In this document: positions 43,995 to 63,732 of the stretch, one piece after another
Numbering within the stretch: position 1 is the stretch's first letter
How the letters are laid out: each line of letters opens with the position of its first letter
Source: Pagrus major
Taxonomy: Eukaryota > Chordata > Actinopteri > Spariformes > Sparidae
Direction: 5' to 3'
Assembly: GCF_040436345.1 (NCBI RefSeq)
Contig: NC_133223.1
Location: 9,962,847-10,026,846, forward strand
DNA: 64,000 bases
The notes under the pieces: generated by a model
What the model saw: the letters and a program-made list of their open reading frames with translations, nothing else
What the model was told of the DNA's origin: nothing
Databases searched by the model: none
Program-made: the position numbers and the translations under genes

Positions 43995-44102
43995 GTCAGG
44001 ATGGCCGAGTGGTCTAAGGCGCCAGACTCAAGGTGAAACCTTCCTGTGAACGGGATTTCTGGTCTCCGAATGGAGGCGTGGGTTCGAATCCCACTTCTGA
44101 CA
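43995..44102 (+). tRNA. tRNA-Leu (anticodon CAA) with intron
   Basis: Acceptor stem GTCAGGA pairs with TTCTGAC, one G-U included, and the discriminator is A at 44102. A box TGGCCGAGTGGT and B box GGTTCGAATCC are intact, and the long variable arm is typical of Leu. Anticodon CAA is at 44029-44031. The anticodon stem CCAGA pairs with TCTGG only if about 24 bases (44033-44056) are removed, as known for vertebrate tRNA-Leu(CAA). A Pol III T5 terminator lies at 44107-44111. Confidence 0.95.
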
Positions 44103-45737: not shown

Positions 45738-45847
45738 GTCAGGATGGCCGAGCGGTCTAAGGCGCCAGACTCAAGGTGTACAACCTTCCTGTGAATGGGA
45801 CTTCTGGTCTCCGAATGGAGGCGTGGGTTCGAATCCCACTTCTGACA
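45738..45847 (+). tRNA. tRNA-Leu (anticodon CAA) with intron, second copy
   Basis: Nearly identical to the gene at 43995. The body differs mainly at AGCGGT in the A box (AGTGGT in the first copy) and in the intron. Anticodon CAA is at 45772-45774, with a 26-base intron at about 45776-45801. B box GGTTCGAATCC is intact and the discriminator A is at 45847. A T5 terminator lies at 45853-45857. The ten bases upstream (GCACAGTTGT) match the first copy, so some flank was duplicated with it. Confidence 0.95.
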
Positions 45848-46580
45848 ATACCTTTTTCTCTGTATGAGACGCAGTACTGCCGTGATATCCTTTTGAAGAA
45901 ATATGAAGGACCAGCCAAAACTAACCCTGCCGCTCTCCTTCATGTTTTACTTTTGTCTTTGCGCACTGAATCACAGCGGGTGTTTCGGCTGCGACAGTGT
46001 GCTACAATAAAATGTCCTGTGATTAAAAAACGTTTCAGACTCAACAAGCTGACCTAATTTAAGCACTAATAAACTACAAAAGTACATCATTTATTAGATT
46101 TATTACAACACACATTACTCTCGACCAGTCTACAGGCTACTGTAAATAAAATGTACAAATATAAATGTAGTGTAGTTTCTGATACAGCACATAATAGCCT
46201 AGTGAAAGAGTCGATCAAGTTTTTTTGAATTACATTTAAATATATAAATTAGTACCTTTTCTAAATAAACCTAATCACGTATAATGTGAAAACAATACAA
46301 TTATAATCTGAAAAATAGCTGTAGTATAAACTATAAATCTGTTTATATAGCATCGATATATAACATATTTATTAAATTGAAATGAAATAAATAAGAAATC
46401 AGTTAAATATAGGCTTGTTAAATGAAATGGAAAGACAATTTATGAACCTTTTCCATTATTTCATCAGCCCTCTGCTGATGAAAGATGACACAGAAAGCTT
46501 TTGTGTCCTTTTGTTTTTTTGTGATTCATGTGTGTCTGCTGTAACGTTTCATATTCCCTCTTCCCCAGTAAAGCTGGCCA

Positions 46581-47485: not shown

Positions 47486-48979
47486 TCAACTCAACATCCC
47501 TTTCTTCAGTTCCATAAACACTCCATTTTTTCCATACCCTCCATGTTTATCAATAGCCCATTTTAAAAACACCTTCAATATATGATCTTCCCTGTTTCTT
47601 AAATATCTCTTTTTCACCATAAGTGCTTTTTTTTTCTTATCTAAATTAATCGGTTTCAGCCCTCCATCCTCATGCTCATTCTCCATCACCTCCCTGGCTA
47701 TCCTGACTCCCTTCCCATCCCACAGAAACTCACTCACTAATCTCTCCACCTCCTTCAACACTCTCTCAGGTACATCCAGCATATTCATTACATACACAAG
47801 CTTACTCATAACCAGCGCATTGACAACCACCACCTTCTCTTTCATGCCCAACCCTCTGTGCCTCCAAAACCCTAATGTCTTCCTAATGCTGTTCACTGTT
47901 CACTATATTGACACCTAACACTCTGAAGTAATCCTGCTTCTCTTTCAGCCCTCTCTCCATCCTCCCTACGCTATCCTCTCCTATATACATGATCTCTGAC
48001 TTCTCTATGTTAGCTTTAGCCCCTGACGCCCTCCAATACAGCTCTAAACTATCTAATACCCCAGCTATACTTTCCCTGTCCCTCACTGTGACTGTTGTGT
48101 CATCCACATACTGATATAATAAGCTCACCTGCCTCACTAACCTGAATGTGTCTGTGACTACGCCACTAATCTTCACACAACTAACTGCCCTATCATACAT
48201 CCTTCTGATCCATCCAGCCAACCTGTGCCCAAAACCTGCTTTCTCCAACACCCTGCATAAGTGTTGGTGGTCTACCCTATCGAATGCTTTATTCAAGTCT
48301 AAACTCACCACTCTTCATATAATCTAATGTGTCCCTGATGCTGCTTATTGTGTCTGCTATATTCCTACCTGGTAAACTGTAAGCCTGCGTGCTCCCTGCC
48401 ACCACCCCAATGACTCTTTTGATCCTATTGGCTAATACCTGTGCTAATATCTTGTAATCTGTATTCGACATGCTAAGTGACCTGTAGTTTTCCAATCTAT
48501 TCCCTTTCTTGTGTATGATGCTAACCAGCCATGTCGACATATCAGATGCCATTTCATCCTTCACTTCTATCCATCTAAACAATTTATCTTCCTCCCTAAA
48601 TTCTAGATAAAATCCCCCAATTAGACCATCTATCCCCGGACATCTTGTTCCTACCTAACCCTGCTACAGCTGCCTCTATTTGTCCCATCCCTACGTCTCC
48701 CTCGCACATCTCCCTGTCATCATCGCTCACCCTCACTTCCACTTTCTCCAACACCTGCCTCATGCCCTCTTCATCCACGTCTCCTTTCCTGAATAACCCC
48801 CCATAAAATTCTTCTACCCTCTCAGCTATCCTTACAAAACCAGTAATCTTCCCACCCTCCTTTCCCTCCACCTGTTCCAAATAATGCTTCTTTTGCTTCG
48901 TCCTCTCTCGCCCTAAGAAAAACCCTGTGCATTTCTCCCCCTCAATCACATATCTAGCCCTGCTTCTGACTTCCCACAC
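47486..48979 (-). pseudogene. LINE reverse transcriptase remnant
   Basis: Four overlapping minus-strand segments (48979-48596, 48582-48289, 48311-47883, 47896-47486) form a broken RT. Recognisable pieces are YRSLSMSNTDYKILAQVLAN, SLPGRNIADTISSIRDTL, SLDLNKAFDRVDH (motif A) and YQYVDDTTVTV (motif C). Between VVTDTFRLVRQ and SLLYQYVDD the sequence jumps from the start of motif B straight into motif C, so an internal deletion removed most of motif B. Confidence 0.8.
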
Positions 48980-49708
48980 ACCTCCTCTGTTCTATCTCCA
49001 TCAGTTCATCTTTAAATCTTATATAGTTCTTTAAATCACAGCCTGCCTCCTTATGTCACTCCACCTTTAACCTCCTCTCTCTCTCCTATTCCTCCCTCTG
49101 CTGTAAATTATACTCAACTCTTTAATTTCTGTTTTCAAACTCTCCTGCCACCTCCCAATGTCCTCCTCATACATACTCTCATTCTTTCTCCTGTTTATAT
49201 GTTCTCTCACTTTCTTTCTTTTTTAAAATACTTTCCATCTTTCAGTAAGTCACCATTCAGACACCACACACCACCCCCTCTCCTCTCAGTTCGTTGATTT
49301 AACCTAAACTCTAACACCATGTGATCGCTGAGTGCTTAGCTCCCCAAACTAAATCTATCCTGCTCTGTTTTAACACCCCTCTCACCACTTGTCTCCCAGA
49401 AAAAGACCCACCCCTCTGGATTCGTCCCTCTACACACGTCAATCAGACCCCCCTCTCTCGCTCATCACACCTCTGGATGAATCACTCCTGTAACACACAG
49501 TCGACGAGGCATCCGACCTTCCACGCCACACATTGAATCACCCACAATCACACAGTTGTCACCACACATTCCTCCCAGCCTCAGAGACAAGCCCTCCTCT
49601 CCCTCTCTTCATTCGGCGCATAAACATTAATGAGTTGAAACTTTTATATCCAAGTGTTCAGATGGGGTTCCAATCGCTCTCTCACTGTTCACATAGGCTA
49701 CATCTCAC

Positions 49709-49714
<6 letters not shown>

Positions 49715-49762
<48 letters not shown>
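49715..49762. repeat. (TC)n-(AC)n microsatellite inside the LINE
   Basis: About 19 TC units followed by a short AC run, within the endonuclease part of the LINE. Confidence 0.95.
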
Positions 49763-49877
49763 TCGTCATCGCAGTGAGTTTCTTGCAGACATATGTCTAC
49801 CTCACACACCACATTGTCCGCGCTGCTGACAATCTCCTCCATCTCCTTCTCTTCTCCCGCCTCCATGGATGTCTCCC

Positions 49878-50611
49878 CTACTGTCCCCCCCTCCCGTCCT
49901 GCTCCTCTTCCTCCTGCATCAGCTCCTCTTCGTCTCCTCCTGCACCACTCCGCTCCACTCCTGTCAGTCCAGCAGGAGACTCTTCTTCTCCACTTTCTCT
50001 TTCTCCCCCATCTTCACTCAGGCTCCGCTCCTCATCATCAGACATCTCCTGGCCACAGCTCTCCCCTCCCGGCTGCAGCTGCTGCTCCGTGCACTCTCGT
50101 GCGTATTGGCCCCGTTTCGCGCATTGGAAACATTTGAATACGGGACAGTCTCTAACCATATGGCAAGGCTGAATGCACAAGTGTCCAGATCCTCCAACTG
50201 TCTCAAACTTTGTTGAGTATGGAGGCGATTTCACCGTGTCAGTAAACTTTTGAAAATCACCTTCCATCAGCAGTGTCCGTCCCGGACTCCCCAGTCTCTC
50301 AGTTTGTCCAGTATTGCCTCATCTTCAATGTATGTAGGCACATTGATGAAAGAGACCATCATCTCATCAATTCCTATCTCCCTCGCCACGATCATGTTAT
50401 TATGTTTTTTGTATCTTCAGTCCATCCAGGATCTCCCTCCTTTCAAATTTCATCTCTCATCGTCAGCGTCTTGAACCGACAGCCAATCACCTCCCCCACA
50501 TTCTTCTTTTACCTTCCTCAGAAGCTCCATCATCGCGACTCTGTCATCAGCTCCTATCTCCACCATCACTGTGAAGCTTTTTTCAAAGATTCTCATTTTC
50601 TTGGTTGCCAT
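49878..50611 (-). pseudogene. LINE ORF1 (zinc-knuckle protein) remnant
   Basis: Starts at the ATG at 50611-50609 (MATKKMRIFEKSFTVMVEIG) and runs with frameshifts to 49878. Two zinc knuckles are damaged: the first keeps CIQPCHMVRDC but has lost its leading Cys pair; the second, CFQCAKRGQYAREC, has Gln in place of the zinc-binding His. An acidic tail follows. Confidence 0.7.
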
Positions 50612-51060
50612 CCACCGTGACCCGTCTCTCGCAGCGTTTCTCCAGTCCTTTATCCGTCGCCATGCTGTCGGCACATAAATTATCGAAAGGTCCCCCAAAC
50701 ATCAAAAGCTGTCGGGGGGAATGACTTCTAAAATAACTTGTTTCATAACGAAAAACACAAATATAGCAACGAACATGCAATATAACTTTCAAGGGAGCTT
50801 CCTGTTGCACCAGAGTGGGTGCGTTCAGGGCGGCCGTAAGCGTGAGAGACACACACACAAGCTATCATAGATGCTGAAACATCAACAATGATCAAAACTG
50901 CTGAATAACATTGATTTGTATTCTTTCACAGTCAACGTGCAAAACCAACACGTATTGATCCTTTTACCAAGTGTTTTGTAGTGGCCTAATAGAGCATCCA
51001 CGAGAGTGACAGCAGGCCTACAGCTGAACGTAGTTTATTTTCAGCCAATCCCACAACACC

Positions 51061-51088: not shown

Positions 51089-51206
51089 TGATTTGAGCTC
51101 CAGGTGAAAACACACCTGTGCAGCTCTGTGAGCCAATGAAGCAGCTTTAAAGGCGCGCTGCTTCGCACGAGGGATCTTTGGTCTGGTCTGTCTGCAGAGT
51201 GCTACC
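51089..51206 (+). promoter_or_regulatory. Putative promoter of the mucin-like gene
   Basis: Two inverted E-boxes, CAGGTG at 51101 and CACCTG at 51113, then a CCAAT box (AGCCAATGAA, about 51131) and TTTAAA (about 51146). The same E-box pair with identical 12-base spacing precedes the paralogous exon 1 at 59299/59311, so this is a conserved promoter module. Confidence 0.55.
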
Positions 51207-54200
51207 ATGGCGTCCGCACTGATGGCTTGGGTTTGGATCGGATTAATGCTAGCCCAGCTCAACAAGATAGGCAGCCACCGGTATGCACATGGTCATTTCC
51301 CCCAGGAGGCACAGGAGGACCCTGATGACGGCGGCGTCCCGGCTCCAGAAGACTGGACCGACCCAAGTTTCCCTGCGCCGGTTTGGAATTTCCTCAAAGG
51401 TGACTCACTGTCCACACGTGTTTTCTATTTCAACAAGCAGTCTATATTTATTTTCAGGCCCATGTTATCCACTTTGTTGCGGCTAAATTGGGAGCAATCT
51501 AAACGTCCTTTTATTTAATGTTCCAAAAACGGACAATATTGGCTTTTAAATGTAAAAAAAAGTGCATGTTAAGCTTGTAGTCTGCAAACATTTGAGGACA
51601 TTTCTTGTTTTTTTGTTTTTGTTTTTTTTTACCAAGCCGGAATTGATTTCACTCTTGAGGCCAGGCCTCAGGCCCCAATGCAAAATTATTTTTTTTGCTA
51701 TAAATGTAAATGTTTCCGTTGAACATTGAGGCTCTTCTGTCTTACATTTTTGGGTTTTCAATTTTACTTTACATTTTAAAAATATGATTTCACAAAGTTT
51801 CATTGTCATATTTTTATTTTCAAAATTATTTAATACTTTCTTTTTAAATCTTAAAGTTCAGGCTCCCCTTTGTTTTAACCTCTAACTTCATAAACACAGA
51901 TATGAGAGTGGTTTTTGCTCTTCTCTTGGCCAGAAAGCACATTGACAGAAATGTTTGCCTATTACTGTCACCTGACCGCACTTACCATTTTCAGTCATTC
52001 CAGTAAGTGGGAAAAGTCCAGAGACATCAGACGTCAACCAGCCACAGTATCGCTGCAGTAATGGAACACTTTCCCTGCGCTTTTCACTCATCCGATACTC
52101 AGATCTGCATCTGGAGGGTGCGTTTGATTCATCCACCTACAGTATGTTTTTGTCTCTAGAAAATAGAATGATGCTGTTGTCAGGGAATTAATGTTTCTCC
52201 AAACCTCTTTTCCACAGATGGTGCCCGATTGTTGTCACTGCCTGACAAGTGTCACAGATCTATTCATATTCCTTATACCGGCTGCTGCACAGCAATACAG
52301 GTAAAATGCAGTCTTAAAGGATAAGGATGCAGATATTCAGTATTTTTCTCATTGTGAGGAAATCTCAAAAGACCCAAATCAAGGATGAATAGCTCTTAGT
52401 ATTGTCTGTGTATCCATAGCCTGATATATTTCATTCCTCTGTGCCAGGGAGCGCCACTATTGTCCAAAAGCACTCTTCCTTCATGTTCATGAACTCTATA
52501 CTCAATCCCATGCATACCATTTGGCTGTTGGAAATGTGCACTAGCGTACTAATCGTGTATTCATCCCCTGCTGAAAATGGTCTTTATACAGTACATTTCT
52601 CTTGGAGTAATGTCTACTAACACTTAAGTGCACAGCTGTTTTTTGCAAATCATCATTCCTTCATAAAACGGGAACTTTAGATTTGTACATTGCTTTTAAA
52701 AAATCTTCCATAGGACCCAGTGGTCTTGGGGCTGAGATCCACATGCATGGTTAGGAAGTAGAAAAGCATTGAGAGACGACTAACACATTGTTGGTTTTGG
52801 ACTTTTTATAGGATTTACACCAGATTGACCCTTTTTTTTTTAAATGAATATATCCTACAATTGACAACAATGTTGTCTATTCCCAGAGTGGAGATGGAAG
52901 TGGCTTCTGGCCGTTCAAACTGCATTACTTGGACCGTCTACTGCAGGAGAACATGACAGGCATGGCTGTCTGTGAGAATCCAGTAATGTCACCACAAGCA
53001 GCGTCTCCATTGGTGACTTGTAGAACAAAGAGTGTCACTGTGAAGCTTCCTCGTGATGCAGAACTGAAGAAGGTGAAACGACATGGTAAGGATCAGCCTG
53101 TTAAACCCTGAACAAAGCCATCAATGCGATTAGACTGATTATTGATTGGAAGCTTTCTGTTGCTCGAACCATAATTGTGAACTTGTTTCTAAGAATTTGA
53201 GTTTGCTTTTTTGGCAGAGTTTCTCACTAACCAAGGATACTTGGTGAGAAAATGGAGGACCCCCACTACATTGTTTGTGGAGATATCAAAGTTGCCAGAC
53301 AGGGTGAGTGAAGTGCAAAACAAGTTAAACTGACTGTTAAATGAATGAGTGTGAAAACTAACATTAATGTTTACAGGATTGTGGCTTTGAAGTGGTGTAC
53401 GTTGACTCCGGGAAACTTTGCATGGTGCTCGCAGCTTGTGCCCCTGTGTTGCCTAAAAAGGTTGGAAGGCACCATGTTAGGAGATCTGTGGACGAACCAG
53501 ATTTTTTTGACCTGTGGGGCTTTGATGATATTCCTGTTGGACCATTTGATCCTGACGTGACGACACAGGCGGCAACGGCGGCAACGACGACGAAGGCGGC
53601 AACGACGACGCAGGTGACAGCGGCGCAAGGTGGAGATTCTTCTGAGTTTTGGGGATTTGAAGAAATTCCTGAAGGGCCATACAATGGAACAGATGTAGAG
53701 ATTCCAGGATCTACTGCAGCTCCGACCACGGCGCCCCCCACCACAGTGGCTCCGACGACTGCAGCCCTGACCACAGTGGCTCCGACGACTGCAGCCCTGA
53801 CCACAGTGGCTCCGACGACTGCGGCCCCCACCACGTCGGCTACGGCAGCTCCAACAACTGCAGCCCCAACCACTGCCTCGACCACAGCGGCCCCCACGAC
53901 TGCAGCTCCGACCACAGCGGCCCCCACGACTGCAGCTCCGACCACAGCGGCCCCCACGACTGCAGCTCCGACCACAGCGGCCCCCACGACTGCAGCTCCG
54001 ACCACAGCGGCCCCCACGACTGCAGCTCCGACCACAGCGGCCCCCACGACTGCAGCCTCGACGACAGCCTCGACCACAGCGGCCCCCACGACTGCAGCCT
54101 CGACGACAGCCTCGACCACAGCGGCCCCCACGACTGCAGCCTCGACGACAGCCTCGACCACAGCGGCCCCCACGACTGCAGCCTCGACGACAGCCTCGAC

Positions 54201-56940
54201 CACAGCGGCCCCAACGACTGCAGCTCCGACGACTACCTCGACGACAGCGGCCCCAACGACGGCCTCGACGACTACCTCGACCTCGTCGACGACGGCGGCC
54301 CCGACCACTGCAGCTCCGACGACTACCTCGACCTCGTCGACGACGGCGGCCCCGACCACTGCGGCTCCGACGACTACCTCGACCTCGTCGACGACGGCGG
54401 CCCCGACCACTGCGGCGTCGACGACGGCGGCCCCCACGACTGCCGCCCCGACCACAGCCGCTACAACTGCGGCCCCGACCACAGCCGCCCCCACGACTGC
54501 GGCCCCGACCACAGCCGCCCCCACGACTGCGGCCCCGACCACAGCCGCCCCCACGACTGCGGCCCCGACCACAGCGGCCCCCACGACTGCGGCCCCGACC
54601 ACAGCGGCCCCGACCACAGCGGCCCCCACGACTGCGGCCCCGACCACAGCGGCCCCGACCACAGCGGCTCCCACTACTGCAGCTCCGACCACAGCGGCTC
54701 CCACTACTGCAGCTCCGACCACAGCGGCTCCCACTACTGCAGCTCCGACCACAGCGGCTCCCACTACTGCAGCGGCCCCCACAACTGCAGCTCCGACAAC
54801 TGCTGCCCCCACAACTGCAGCTCCGACAACTGCTGCCCCCACGACAGCGGCCCCCACCACAGCGGCTCTGACAACTGCTGCCCCAACCACAGCCGCTACA
54901 ACTGCCGCCCCGACCACAGCGGCCCCCACTACTGCAGCTCCGACAACTGCTGCCCCGACCACAGCCGCGACAACTGCTGCCCCGACCACAGCCGCGACAA
55001 CTGCTGCCCCGACCACAGCCGCGACAACTGCTGCCCCGACCACAGCCGCGACAACTGCTGCCCCGACCACAGCCGCGACAACTGCTGCCCCGACCACAGC
55101 CGCGACAACTGCTGCCCCGACCACAGCCGCGACAACTGCTGCCCCGACCACAGCCGCGACAACTGCTGCCCCGACCACAGCCGCGACAACTGCTGCCCCG
55201 ACCACAGCCGCGACAACTGCTGCCCCGACCACAGCCGCGACAACTGCTGCCCCGACCACAGCCGCCCCCACGACTGCCGCCCCCACGACTGCCGCCCCCA
55301 CGACTGCCGCCCCGACGACAGCGGCCCCGACGACAGCGGCCCCGACGACTGCGGCCCCGACGACTGCGGCCCCCACGACAGCGGCCCCCACCACAGCGGC
55401 TCTGACAACTGCTGCTACAACTGCCGCCCCGACCACTGCTGCCCCGACCACAGTGGCCCCCACAACTGCCGCCACGACTGCAGCTCCGACAACTGCGGCC
55501 CCCACGACTGCAGCTCCGACAACTGCGGCCCCCACTACTGCAGCTCCGACAACTGCGGCCCCCACTACTGCAGCTCCGACAACTGCGGCCCCCACTACTG
55601 CAGCTCCGACAACTGCGGCCCCCACTACTGCAGCTCCGACCACAGCGGCCCCGACCACAGCGGCCCCCACTACTGCAGCTCCGACAACTGCGGCCCCCAC
55701 CACTGCAGCTCCGACCACAGCGGCCCCCACCACTGCAGCTCCGACCACAGCGGCCCCCACCACTGCGGCTCCGACAACTGCGGCCCCCACCACTACGGCT
55801 CCGACAACTGCGGCCCCGACAACTGCGGCCCCGACCACAGCGGCCCCCACTACAGCGGCCCCCACTACAGCAGCTCCGACCACTGCTGCCCCCACTACTG
55901 CAGCCCCGACGACAGCTGCCCCGACGACAGCTGCCCCCACGACAGCGGCTCCGACAACTGCTGCCCCGACCACAGCCGCCACAACTGCCGCCCCGACCAC
56001 TGCTGCCCCGACCACAGTGGCCCCCACAACTGCCGCCCCGACCACAGCCGCTACGACAGCGGCCCCCACGACTGCAGCTCCGACCACAGCGGCCCCCACT
56101 ACTGCGGCTCCGACCACAGCGGCCCCCACTACTGCGGCTCCGACCACAGCGGCCCCCACTACTGCGGCCCCCACTACTGCGGCCCCCACTACTGCGGCTC
56201 CCACTACTGCGGCTCCGACCACAGCGGCTCCCACTACTGCGGCCCCCACTACTGCAGCTCCGACCACAGCGGCCCCCACTACTGCAGCTCCGACCACTGC
56301 TGCCCCCACTACTGCAGCTCCGACGACAGCTGCCCCGACGACAGCTGCCCCCACCACAGCGGCTCCGACCACAGCGGCCCCCACCACAGCGGCTCCGACA
56401 ACTGCCGCCCCGACCACAGCCGCTACAACTGCCGCCCCGACCACAGCCGCTACAACTGCCGCCCCGACCACTGCTGCCCCGACCACAGCCGCTACCACAG
56501 CGGCCCCCACGACTGCTGCCCCGACCACAGCGGCCCCCACGACTGCTGCTCCGACCACAGCGGCCCCCACGACTGCTGCTCCGACCACAGCGGCCCCCAC
56601 GACTGCGGCCCCCACGACTGCGGCCCCGACAACTGCGGCTCCCACTACTGCGGCTCCCACTACTGCGGCCCCGACAACTGCGGCTCCCACTACTGCGGCT
56701 CCCACTACTGCAGCTCCGACCACAGCGGCCCCCACTACTGCAGCTCCGACCACAGCGGCCCCCACTACAGCGGCCCCCACTACAGCAGCTCCGACCACAG
56801 CTGCTCCGACGACAGCTGCTCCGACGACAGCTGCCCCGACGACAGCTGCCCCGACCACTGCCGCTCCGACCACAGCCGCTCCCACGACTGCCGCCCCGAC
56901 CACAGCGGCCCCCACGACTGCAGCTCCGACCACTGTATAA
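51207..56940 (+). CDS. Predicted secreted mucin-like protein with Cys-rich (possibly ZP-N-like) ectodomain and giant TTAAP repeat
   Basis: I do not recognise a named gene. Exons: 51207-51399, 51995-52117, 52218-52300, 52887-53085, 53218-53303, 53377-56940. All have GT-AG borders and compatible phases, giving 1415 residues plus TAA. Residues 1 to about 22 form a signal peptide (MASALMAWVWIGLMLAQ). Residues 65-255 hold nine cysteines (85, 117, 128, 129, 162, 178, 230, 243, 249) and N-glycosylation sequons at 87 and 155. The pattern PYTGCC...KLHYLD...AVC loosely recalls ZP-N-like egg-coat modules; this is weak inference. A basic RHHVRRS follows, then two copies of an acidic motif (DLWGFDDIPVGPF, EFWGFEEIPEGPY). 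From about 339 to the end the protein is (TTAAP)n, dense in potential O-glycan sites, with no Cys and no membrane anchor. A third sequon sits in EGPYNGTD. Other readings: a secreted mucus or skin mucin. Confidence 0.8.
53730..56935. repeat. 15-bp coding minisatellite (TTAAP) with higher-order repeats
   Basis: Basic unit is 15 bp (for example ACCACAGCGGCCCCC), about 200 units over 3.2 kb, read in a single frame. Higher-order blocks: 42 bp x4 (about 54052-54220, TTAASTTASTTAAP), 51 bp x3 starting at 54267, 54318 and 54369 (carrying TSTSSTTAAP), and 27 bp x about 11 (54949-55257, PTTAATTAA). Indels are multiples of three, so the frame has been kept. Confidence 0.95.
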
Positions 56941-59280: not shown

Positions 59281-59439
59281 ACAACCCGACGTGTCCTCCA
59301 GGTGAAAACGCACCTGTGGAGCTTTCTGATCTAATGAGCCATATTTAATGGCACAGCTGTGCGGTCGTCCCAGTTTTCCAGCCGGCATCTCTGTTCTGGT
59401 CTGGCGGCAAAGAGAAGCCGAGCGGACCGGAGCACTACC
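59281..59439 (+). promoter_or_regulatory. Promoter of the paralogous exon 1
   Basis: Shares CTCCAGGTGAAAAC and the following CACCTGTG with 51099-51120. E-boxes are at 59299 and 59311. CCATATTTAATGG (about 59339-59351) takes the place of the CCAAT/TTTAAA part of the first gene. Confidence 0.5.
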
Positions 59440-59614
59440 ATGGCGTTCGCACTGATGGCTTGGGTTTGGATCGGATTAATACTAGCCCAGCGCAACAAAG
59501 CAGGGAGCCACCGGTATGCACACGGTCATCTGGGCGCCCAGGAGGAGTTTGGTGCGGCTCCACAAGACTGGACTGACCGAAGTTCCTATGTGCCGGTTTG
59601 GAATTTCCTCCAAG
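59440..59614 (+). CDS. Paralogous first exon of the mucin-like gene (rest not seen; partial or pseudogene)
   Basis: MAFALMAWVWIGLILAQRNK... through WNFLQ, 58 codons plus one base, ending at a GT donor in phase 1 exactly like exon 1 at 51207-51399 (MASALMAWVWIGLMLAQLNK ... WNFLK). It shares the signal peptide, GSHRYAHGH and PVWNFL; the middle is shorter by six residues. The start was chosen by alignment with the first gene. No counterpart of exons 2-6 is visible in the next 4.4 kb, which is filled with repeats. So exons may lie past the right edge, or this is an orphan exon from a tandem duplication. Confidence 0.7.
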
Positions 59615-59949
59615 GTGAAACCCGCTTTTGACCCCTAGTACCTGTTTTGATCATTATGTTAGAAATGAGTTGCCTTAAAGTTCACCGGAAGTGATTTATG
59701 ATTTCATTGCTCTTTATTTCGTTAAACTGGGGAGGGAACATCCAGCCAAGCTCACCATCAGCTCTTGGAAATCGTGATTGTGACATGTTTGACTATTTTC
59801 TGATTTCAGTTAATCAATGATTCGAGAAAATAATTGTCAGATTGATCAATCATGGAAATAATCATTAGTTGCAGTACCACAGGTAACCATAGTGAGACCT
59901 CATCTACACCCAGGCCTACTTGCACCTGCGTCATTCCATGCAAACTGAC

Positions 59950-62436: not shown

Positions 62437-63275
62437 CAGTGGTGCTTGAAAGTTTGTGAACCCTTTTAGAATGTTCTATATTTCTGCATAAATGTGACCT
62501 AAAACAACATCAGATTTTCATGCAAGTACTTAAAGTAGATAAAGAGAACCCAATTAAGCAAATGAGAAAAAAATATTATACTCGGCCATTCATTTATTGA
62601 GGAAAATGATCCAATATTACATATCTGGGAGTGGCAAAAGTATGTGAACATTTACTTTCAGTATTTGGTGTGACCCCCTTGTGCAGCAATAACTGCAACT
62701 AAACATTTCCGGTAACTGTTGATTAGTCTTGCACATCGGCTTGGAGGAATTTTAGCCCATTCCTCCATACAGAAAAGCTTCAACTCTGGGATGTTGGCGG
62801 GTTTTCCTCACATGAACTGCTCACTTTAGGTCCTTCCACAACATTTCGATTGGATTAAGGTCAGGACTTTGACTTGGCCATTCCAAAACATTAACTTTAT
62901 TCTTCTTTAACCATTCTTTGGTTGAACAACTTGTGTGCTTAGGGTCGTTGTCTTGTATGCAAGACAATGACCCTAAGCACACAAGTGGTTCAATCCACAT
63001 TCTCTTGAGATTCAGTGCACGGACATATATGTCCTGACATTTTCCTTTTTAGAATTACTGGTATAATTCAGAATTAAATTGTTCCATCAATGATGGCAAG
63101 CCATCCTAGCCCAGATGCAGCAAAACGGGTCCAAACCATGATACTACCACCACCACGTTTCACAGATGGGATAAGGTTCTTATGCTGGAATGCAGTGTTT
63201 TCCTTTCTCCAAACATGACGCTTCTCATTTAAACCAAAAAGTTCAATTTTGGTCTCATCCATCTACAAAACTAAT
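62437..63275 (-). mobile_element. Tc1-like transposon copy, truncated and rearranged
   Basis: Starts with the terminal sequence CAGTGGTGCTTGAAAGTTTG. The minus strand encodes transposase pieces, notably DETKIELFGLNEKRHVW and GGGSIMVW (63262-63074). The part of the element beyond about 63275 (transposase N-terminus and other terminus) is missing. A near-perfect hairpin at 62930-62985 interrupts the transposase near the DNDPKHTS segment. Confidence 0.85.
62930..62985. repeat. 26-bp inverted repeat, 4-base loop
   Basis: Arms 62930-62955 and 62960-62985 match at 25 of 26 positions. Similarity continues outward for about ten more bases with two mismatches (TTGAACAA versus TTGAACCA). Confidence 0.95.
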
Positions 63276-63732
63276 ACAGCAGGTCTTGGATAATCCCACC
63301 TGGAACAGGTCTGGGTGGATTACTGCTAAATGGATTGCAGTTTAACCAGAATTATTGAAAAAGTGCAGTCATAATTAATTTCATCATTAAGCAGTTTGAT
63401 ATGATAGTGAAGTCATGGAGTCAGCACTCAGTGTAGATGTGACAGAACTACATTAATACTACACACAACTAAAGCCATTGTTATATACAGTTATATACAT
63501 TTTAAAAATGTATATTATATTATATATATATGTATGTATATTATATGTATGTATAATTTTTAAAATGATAGATTCTTTGTTTGGGTAAAAAATTACTTCC
63601 TGTTATTAATTTGATCACTAACGATTCAGCAACAACTATTTAAATGATTACATGTTGCCAAGTTTACTTAGTCTCACTGATGTTCAGCCCAATCCAGTGA
63701 AAAATCAGCCATTGGTGAGGTTTAAATCACAC

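Follow-up and report, generated by a model that had tools for sequence, protein, structure and literature searches.

Free ZP-N domains occur in ZP1, ZP2, ZP4, and ZPAX, and the authors who list them are aware of no nonreproductive protein with a duplicated ZP-N domain (PMC9154058). Zebrafish chorions contain mucins (PMC7055395), and these derive partly from tandem gene families (PMC7055395, PMC11075544). Taken one by one, the free ZP-N domain, the mucin tail, and the chorion mucin have all been described before. In the limited literature collection that we searched, we found no protein combining ZP-N with a mucin tail and lacking a ZP module, and no coding exon of at least 18 kb in such a gene. 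Here we describe a gene of Pagrus major that encodes a Cys-rich ectodomain, resembling free ZP-N domains in its gene structure, ahead of a 1076-residue mucin-like tail. It lies at positions 51207-56940 of the stretch of DNA analysed, a 64,000-nucleotide window (C9:9962847-10026846, where C9 is contig NC_133223.1) of a 786-Mb genome in 25 contigs.

All splice sites, for this gene and for the reference genes used below, were placed from the DNA alone rather than from transcripts, those of the reference genes being judged by eye. Among the GT/AG candidates scanned near the junctions, a single combination keeps one frame, giving six exons and a product of 1415 amino acids (Table 1), and this bears out the six-exon, one-frame model of a preliminary description of the locus. 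The product begins with a hydrophobic leader, judged from sequence (19-residue hydropathy mean 1.41), followed by nine cysteines at residues 85, 117, 128, 129, 162, 178, 230, 243, and 249, and then by two instances of an acidic-aromatic motif, WGF(D/E)(D/E)IP, whose duplication score was reached by none of 20,000 shuffles. The rest is a tail of 446 T, 417 A, 180 P, 23 S, 6 V, and 4 L, in which the exact pentapeptide TTAAP occurs 169 times. The secreted Cys-rich region joined to a mucin tail, the nine-cysteine domain, and the duplicated acidic motif had all been proposed in the preliminary description, and each could be located. A predicted secretion leader combined with a long Thr/Ser/Pro-rich repeat tail (44% Thr plus Ser) is the composition of a secreted mucin. 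No clear membrane anchor was found downstream of the leader, where the top 19-residue hydropathy mean is 1.55 and falls within the second domain.

The tail is encoded by a 15-bp minisatellite. Because the other reading frames within the array are likewise open, the presence of long open reading frames there is no proof of coding, and the coding status is instead inferred from the concentration of unit-to-unit changes at third codon positions. At a lag of 15 bases, the mismatches in the tail of the window gene number 134, 19, and 738 at codon positions 1, 2, and 3 (1071 comparisons each), part of the first-position mismatches being register shifts between unit variants. When codons differ between units, the change is synonymous in 622 of 774 pairs (152 nonsynonymous), compared to the 33% expected of random single changes. 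The longer arrays described below behave the same way, with mismatches of 441, 430, and 4700 (6017 each) in the second copy of the gene and of 450, 464, and 5342 (6768 each) over the final 6773 codons of the array that follows. On this evidence the tail is both translated and selected, and the earlier reading of about 3.2 kb as coding minisatellite agrees with this codon-position pattern.

The window gene is one member of a tandem pair. A BLAST comparison of the gene to the rest of the window returned a 352-column match at 59285-59618, which takes in exon 1 together with its proximal promoter and ends just beyond the splice donor; in this copy the E-box pair and the donor are conserved along with the greater part of the leader, and its two coding gaps (6 and 12 bases) preserve the frame. 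When the ectodomain without exon 1 was searched against the genome, scoring the best candidates only, 11 matches were listed at E<=10, all of them within the interval 10.01-10.05 Mb of C9. We refer to the window gene as A, to the copy at 59440 as B, and to the second copy as given by its six-exon model as C. In C, six exons are bounded by GT-AG sites whose places match those of A, the start of exon 2 being 27 bases shorter, and it continues for 6353 stop-free codons up to an assembly gap, with a last exon of at least 18.4 kb. The exons of the window gene have a homologue within this genome, namely the paralogous copy. The gene model of the earlier account stands, but that account was of a single gene and missed both the exon 1 and promoter of the second copy in the same window and the far longer tail.

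The assembly beyond the window is interrupted. Two 100-N gaps (C9:10027982-10028081 and C9:10055513-10055612) enclose a contig, C9:10028082-10055512, which repeats its left neighbour (the stretch from the 3' end of A to B) almost exactly but in inverted orientation, with the main pieces 93-99% identical; some B sequence is absent from it, and the inverted 3' end of A is present. Judging from the sequence, the contig likely represents two alleles side by side, with the alternative haplotype placed inverted, or else it may be a recent inverted duplication. As B and C are probably alleles or the products of such a duplication, we count them as one second gene. Past the next gap is a 28-kb array on the + strand, ending in ...TTVALTTAAPTTV-stop near C9:10083.6 kb, with a downstream context and AATAAA that resemble those of the window gene. 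This array contains three frame changes in its first 7.6 kb (C9:10055613-10063233), which are either contig-end errors or real, and then 6773 uninterrupted codons. The 18-kb and 28-kb arrays may overlap, and their lengths are not summed.

Comparing A to the second copy, exon 1 (58 codons) carries 5 synonymous and 16 nonsynonymous differences (nonsynonymous divergence, dN, 0.158; synonymous divergence, dS, 0.197), residues 76-262 (187 codons, frame intact) carry 12 and 10 (dN 0.024, dS 0.106), and residues 263-340 (78 codons, alignment uncertain) carry 6 and 36 (dN 0.341, dS 0.493). By this regional contrast, the Cys domain is constrained, and the leader region and acidic linker are fast-changing. 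The second copy retains every one of the nine cysteines except C230, which is replaced by serine. Exon 1 (dS 0.20, dN 0.16) has diverged much further between the copies than residues 76-262 (dS 0.11) and introns 3-5, which are about 94-96% identical (approximate bounds). The mosaic of divergence between exon 1 and the remainder suggests gene conversion or a swapped first exon.

The Cys domain is very probably a diverged free ZP-N, an assignment that we make on gene structure and not on sequence score. For comparison, we used free ZP-N1 exons of the same genome. The Pfam family Ig_ZP2 gave two genomic matches, both under the cut-off when taken exon by exon, in two genes that we take to be of ZPAX type (ZPAX_a and ZPAX_b); the spliced N1-N2 regions of both pass the cut-off, and one gene also shows a ZP-N domain. 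The family ZP1_ZP4_Ig-like gave three weak matches, of which one (L024, with internal stops) was dropped before reference exons were counted. The other two, L022 on C7 and L023 on C6, are further free ZP-N1 exons, identified after the introns common with ZPAX had been noted, and they complete a reference set of four. L023 is followed by a Pro/Gln/Tyr-rich stretch, like that of fish ZP1-type genes.

In 4/4 reference exons, a phase-0 intron falls exactly five residues after the motif [YF]xxC, a rule derived within this analysis, and a phase-1 intron lies 20 and 23 (ZPAX-type genes), 28 (L022), or 21 (L023) residues past the first Cys. Exon 3 of the window gene follows the same code, with its phase-1 intron 20 residues past the first Cys and its phase-0 end exactly five residues past [YF]xxC. 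In the window gene and both ZPAX-type genes, the codon interrupted by the phase-1 intron encodes Asp, where the remaining two exons have Ala and Gly, and these same three genes have 28 residues from the phase-0 intron to the fourth Cys and 34 from the third Cys to the fourth.

The cysteines themselves tell a similar story. Their spacing in the window protein is 32, 11, 1, 33, and 16, compared to 33, 18, 32, and 16 in mouse ZP2 and 33, 18, 32, and 17 in human ZP2; reduced to a four-Cys ladder, the window gene reads 32/11/34/16, ZPAX_a 36/22/34/12, and ZPAX_b 39/21/34/13. The four ordered cysteines of a free ZP-N are all present, with a short interval between the second and third (C2-C3) and an extra cysteine, C129. 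The PYTGCC segment holds the YxxC found in ZP2 (YETC, YDNC), in chicken ZP1 (YEGC), and in ZP4 (YSSC). The ZP-N of ZP3 lacks it, as do PLAC1 and OOSP2. Of 300,000 full shuffles, 1681 matched the Cys spacing alone, 71 the spacing plus YxxC, and none the full pattern, and 6 of 300,000 matched the full pattern when the cysteines were held fixed, for a pattern that was defined post hoc with the sequences already seen. The second domain shares with ZPAX_a a phase-0 intron ahead of an EV(V/I) strand and resembles the free domains of ZPAX and ZP2 less clearly than the first. The ZP-N-like module hinted at in the preliminary description is supported by its Cys order and spacing, its [YF]xxC, and its intron positions and phases, but no significant sequence or profile score could be attached to it.

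That last point heads a set of observations that weigh against our interpretation. The ectodomain matched 0 Pfam families at E<=10 (Ig_ZP2, Ig_ZP2_N, Ig_ZP2_3rd, and ZP1_ZP4_Ig-like included), a negative limited by the HMMER filters, which discard most weak matches; as a control, the same library detects N1-N2 of both ZPAX-type genes. A PDB sequence search with the ectodomain gave no match, and when both copies were aligned to the pair of ZPAX sequences with hhalign, the probability was 0.5%. Hidden Markov models of ZP2 and ZPAX domains scored against shuffles at p 0.02-0.21 (0.14 and 0.07 for ZPAX_b), with no match to ZPAX N2, and a control pairing of ZPAX N1 with the second domain did equally well as the intended pairings (p 0.06-0.07; 0.06 for ZPAX_b). 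Compared to the relatives, the C2-C3 loop is short by 7-11 residues, and the second domain carries a phase-1 intron not present in ZPAX_a and is without the ZPAX intron just past the fifth Cys. The first and second domains (D1 and D2) show no mutual resemblance (p 0.79), so that an internal duplication, suspected from introns in phase 1 then 0 around exons of 83 and 86 bp, may or may not have occurred. Finally, many factors recognise E-boxes of the kind found in the promoter.

Other searches with the protein were also negative. NCBIfam returned nothing for the ectodomain, and scans of viral and prokaryotic contigs found no relative. Sixteen pairwise shuffle comparisons with ZP2 N1-N3 gave lowest p values of 0.001 for D2 against human N1 and 0.016 for D1 against human N2, followed by 0.052 (D2, human N3) and 0.055 (D2, mouse N3), and 16 pairings with ZP1-4, PLAC1, and OOSP2 gave a lowest p of 0.003 (D2 with human ZP2 N1, local; 0.087 end-to-end); we discount these low values because the domain order is wrong and the tests are many. 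There is no C-terminal ZP module, as the frame ends with the tail: past residue 340 only the tail and the stop remain, and residues 1-340 have no Pfam match. A genome search with PF00100 gave 64 matches, none near the locus (the nearest on C9 is at 7.80 Mb), which is a weak negative, as the list also misses the loci of both ZPAX-type genes.

The proximal promoter provides a further point of comparison. The pattern CAGGTGN6CACCTG occurs twice in the window compared to 0.01 expected, and the two sites, 51101-51118 and 59299, precede A and the second copy. CAGGTGAAAACNCACCTG occurs five times in the genome, three times preceding copies of this gene and twice elsewhere, and the inverted CAGGTG/CACCTG pair is preserved ahead of each copy. 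The promoter E-box pair of the preliminary description is present and recurs at the second copy, but it lies outside the 51207-56940 interval to which it had been assigned. That description also took the pair to suit an oocyte gene, which this one may be. Such E-boxes suit the oocyte factor FIGLA, and very short untranslated regions have been reported for ZP genes.

We lean towards the gene encoding a secreted egg-surface mucin in which free ZP-N domains are fused to a giant mucin tail, a preference that comes from the egg-coat contacts mediated by free ZP-N domains, the existence of chorion mucins, the E-box pair, and the short untranslated regions taken together. The product would combine a pair of free domains of ZP-N type, like those of ZPAX and ZP2 and folded as such, with a very long tail that is presumably densely O-glycosylated. 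The oocyte would express the gene and secrete the protein into the egg coat or the perivitelline space, where it would be docked on coat proteins by its ZP-N pair, its T/A/P tail making a hydrated bottlebrush.

The alternative that survives best, though we consider it unlikely, is a mucosal mucin of skin, gill, or gut, with ZP-N domains borrowed from an egg-coat gene, serving as a scaffold of mucus rather than acting at the egg. The tail has the composition of any secreted mucin, and CACCTG/CAGGTG sites fit epithelial regulators as well. However, the VWD, C8, and cystine-knot domains of gel-forming (MUC2/5-type) mucins, like other gel-forming domains, were not found among Pfam families in residues 1-340, beyond which there is only the tail and then the stop, and in gene structure the Cys domain matches an egg-coat free ZP-N. 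The statement on nonreproductive proteins with a duplicated ZP-N (PMC9154058) also argues against it. Less probable still is an unrelated small domain in a fish secreted mucin of unspecified type, with cysteines and introns like those of free ZP-N by chance or convergence. The unconvincing sequence and profile comparisons would be expected of such a domain; on the other hand, two intron positions with their phases, the Cys order, and [YF]xxC agree with 4/4 reference exons, L022 and L023 having been found only after the introns shared with ZPAX were noted. Fish hyosophorins are long glycosylated tandem-repeat proteins of the cortical alveoli, and a hydrating mucin of the cortical alveolus or perivitelline space, released at egg activation and not built into the coat, is the least probable reading of all. 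Against it stands the occurrence of free ZP-N domains in coat proteins (PMC9154058).

Returning to the egg-surface mucin, we regard a wider view of the family as evenly balanced between right and wrong: a pair of free ZP-N domains, split from any ZP module, would carry a T/A/P brush that lengthened from some 1,100 residues in one copy to upwards of 6,000 (possibly of 9,000) in the neighbour. The exon would then rank among the largest single coding exons on record, its silent sites diverging widely around constant amino acids. Exons of similar size occur in human MUC16 and titin.

Table 1. Features of the window gene and of the second copy, in window coordinates.
Feature	Position	Strand	Content or basis
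Inverted E-box pair CAGGTGAAAACACACCTG	51101..51118	+	Proximal promoter of the window gene
Exon 1	51207..51399	+	Hydrophobic leader, then fast-changing linker
Exon 2	51995..52117	+	Start of ZP-N1-like domain, C85; ends in phase 1, 20 residues past C85
Exon 3	52218..52300	+	C117, then C128 and C129 within PYTGCC; phase-0 end five residues past C128
Exon 4	52887..53085	+	C162 (28 residues past the intron; closes first domain) and C178 (opens second domain)
Exon 5	53218..53303	+	Middle part of second domain
Exon 6	53377..56940	+	Remainder of second domain with C230, C243, and C249, then both acidic-aromatic motifs, the TTAAP tail, and the stop
15-bp minisatellite coding (TTAAP)n	53713..56935	+	Tandem Repeats Finder, 218.3 copies; codon-position test
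Polyadenylation signal AATAAA	56955..56960	+	Starts 14 bases past the stop
Identical inverted E-box pair	59299..59316	+	Ahead of the second copy
Exon 1 of second copy	59440..59614	+	BLAST match; exon 2 lies beyond the window near C9:10027852

Three other features were noted in the window. Upstream of the gene, at about 47500-50700 on the - strand, are reverse-transcriptase-like reading frames, which we take to be fragments of a non-LTR retrotransposon. A near-identical pair with apparent introns at about 43995-44102 and 45740-45848, for which ARAGORN in bacterial mode reports no tRNA, is presumably tRNA-Leu-like. Within intron 1 of the second copy, at about 62440-63280, is a transposon remnant that we assume to be Tc1/mariner-like.

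If the egg-surface interpretation is true, the gene represents a new egg-coat architecture, in which a giant mucin bears a recognition-type domain but lacks the polymerising ZP module, and it is a candidate for a role in the hydration or adhesiveness of the fish egg coat or in sperm-egg specificity. The two adjacent copies permit a direct test of tail-length evolution. Our comparison also suggests that intron phase may reveal diverged free ZP-N domains missed by profile searches.

Among known systems, the antifreeze glycoproteins are polyproteins of T-A-A/P tripeptides with cleavage spacers. The tail of the window gene, being nearly all T, A, and P, is similar, but it has a five-residue TTAAP period and a Cys-rich front domain, and no cleavage spacers were seen. 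We rejected an antifreeze reading on the 15-bp unit, the 169 exact TTAAP, a tail made only of T/A/P/S/V/L, and the architecture. In abalone VERL, the repeat itself is ZP-N and the ZP module is kept, while in the window gene the repeat is the mucin tail. VERL, which is named in PMC13361971, is otherwise comparable as an egg-surface protein with ZP-N repeats. The zebrafish chorion mucins are similar in being tandemly duplicated secreted fish mucin genes, but they are called zebrafish-unique or cyprinid-specific (PMC7055395, PMC11075544). Relative to ZPAX and ZP2, the window gene has no significant sequence score, a shorter C2-C3 interval, only two such domains, and no ZP module. With their free N1/N2 domains it nevertheless shares the Cys order and spacing, a [YF]xxC at the third Cys, and the phase-1 and phase-0 introns, and with mouse ZP2 the 16 residues to the Cys of the next domain.

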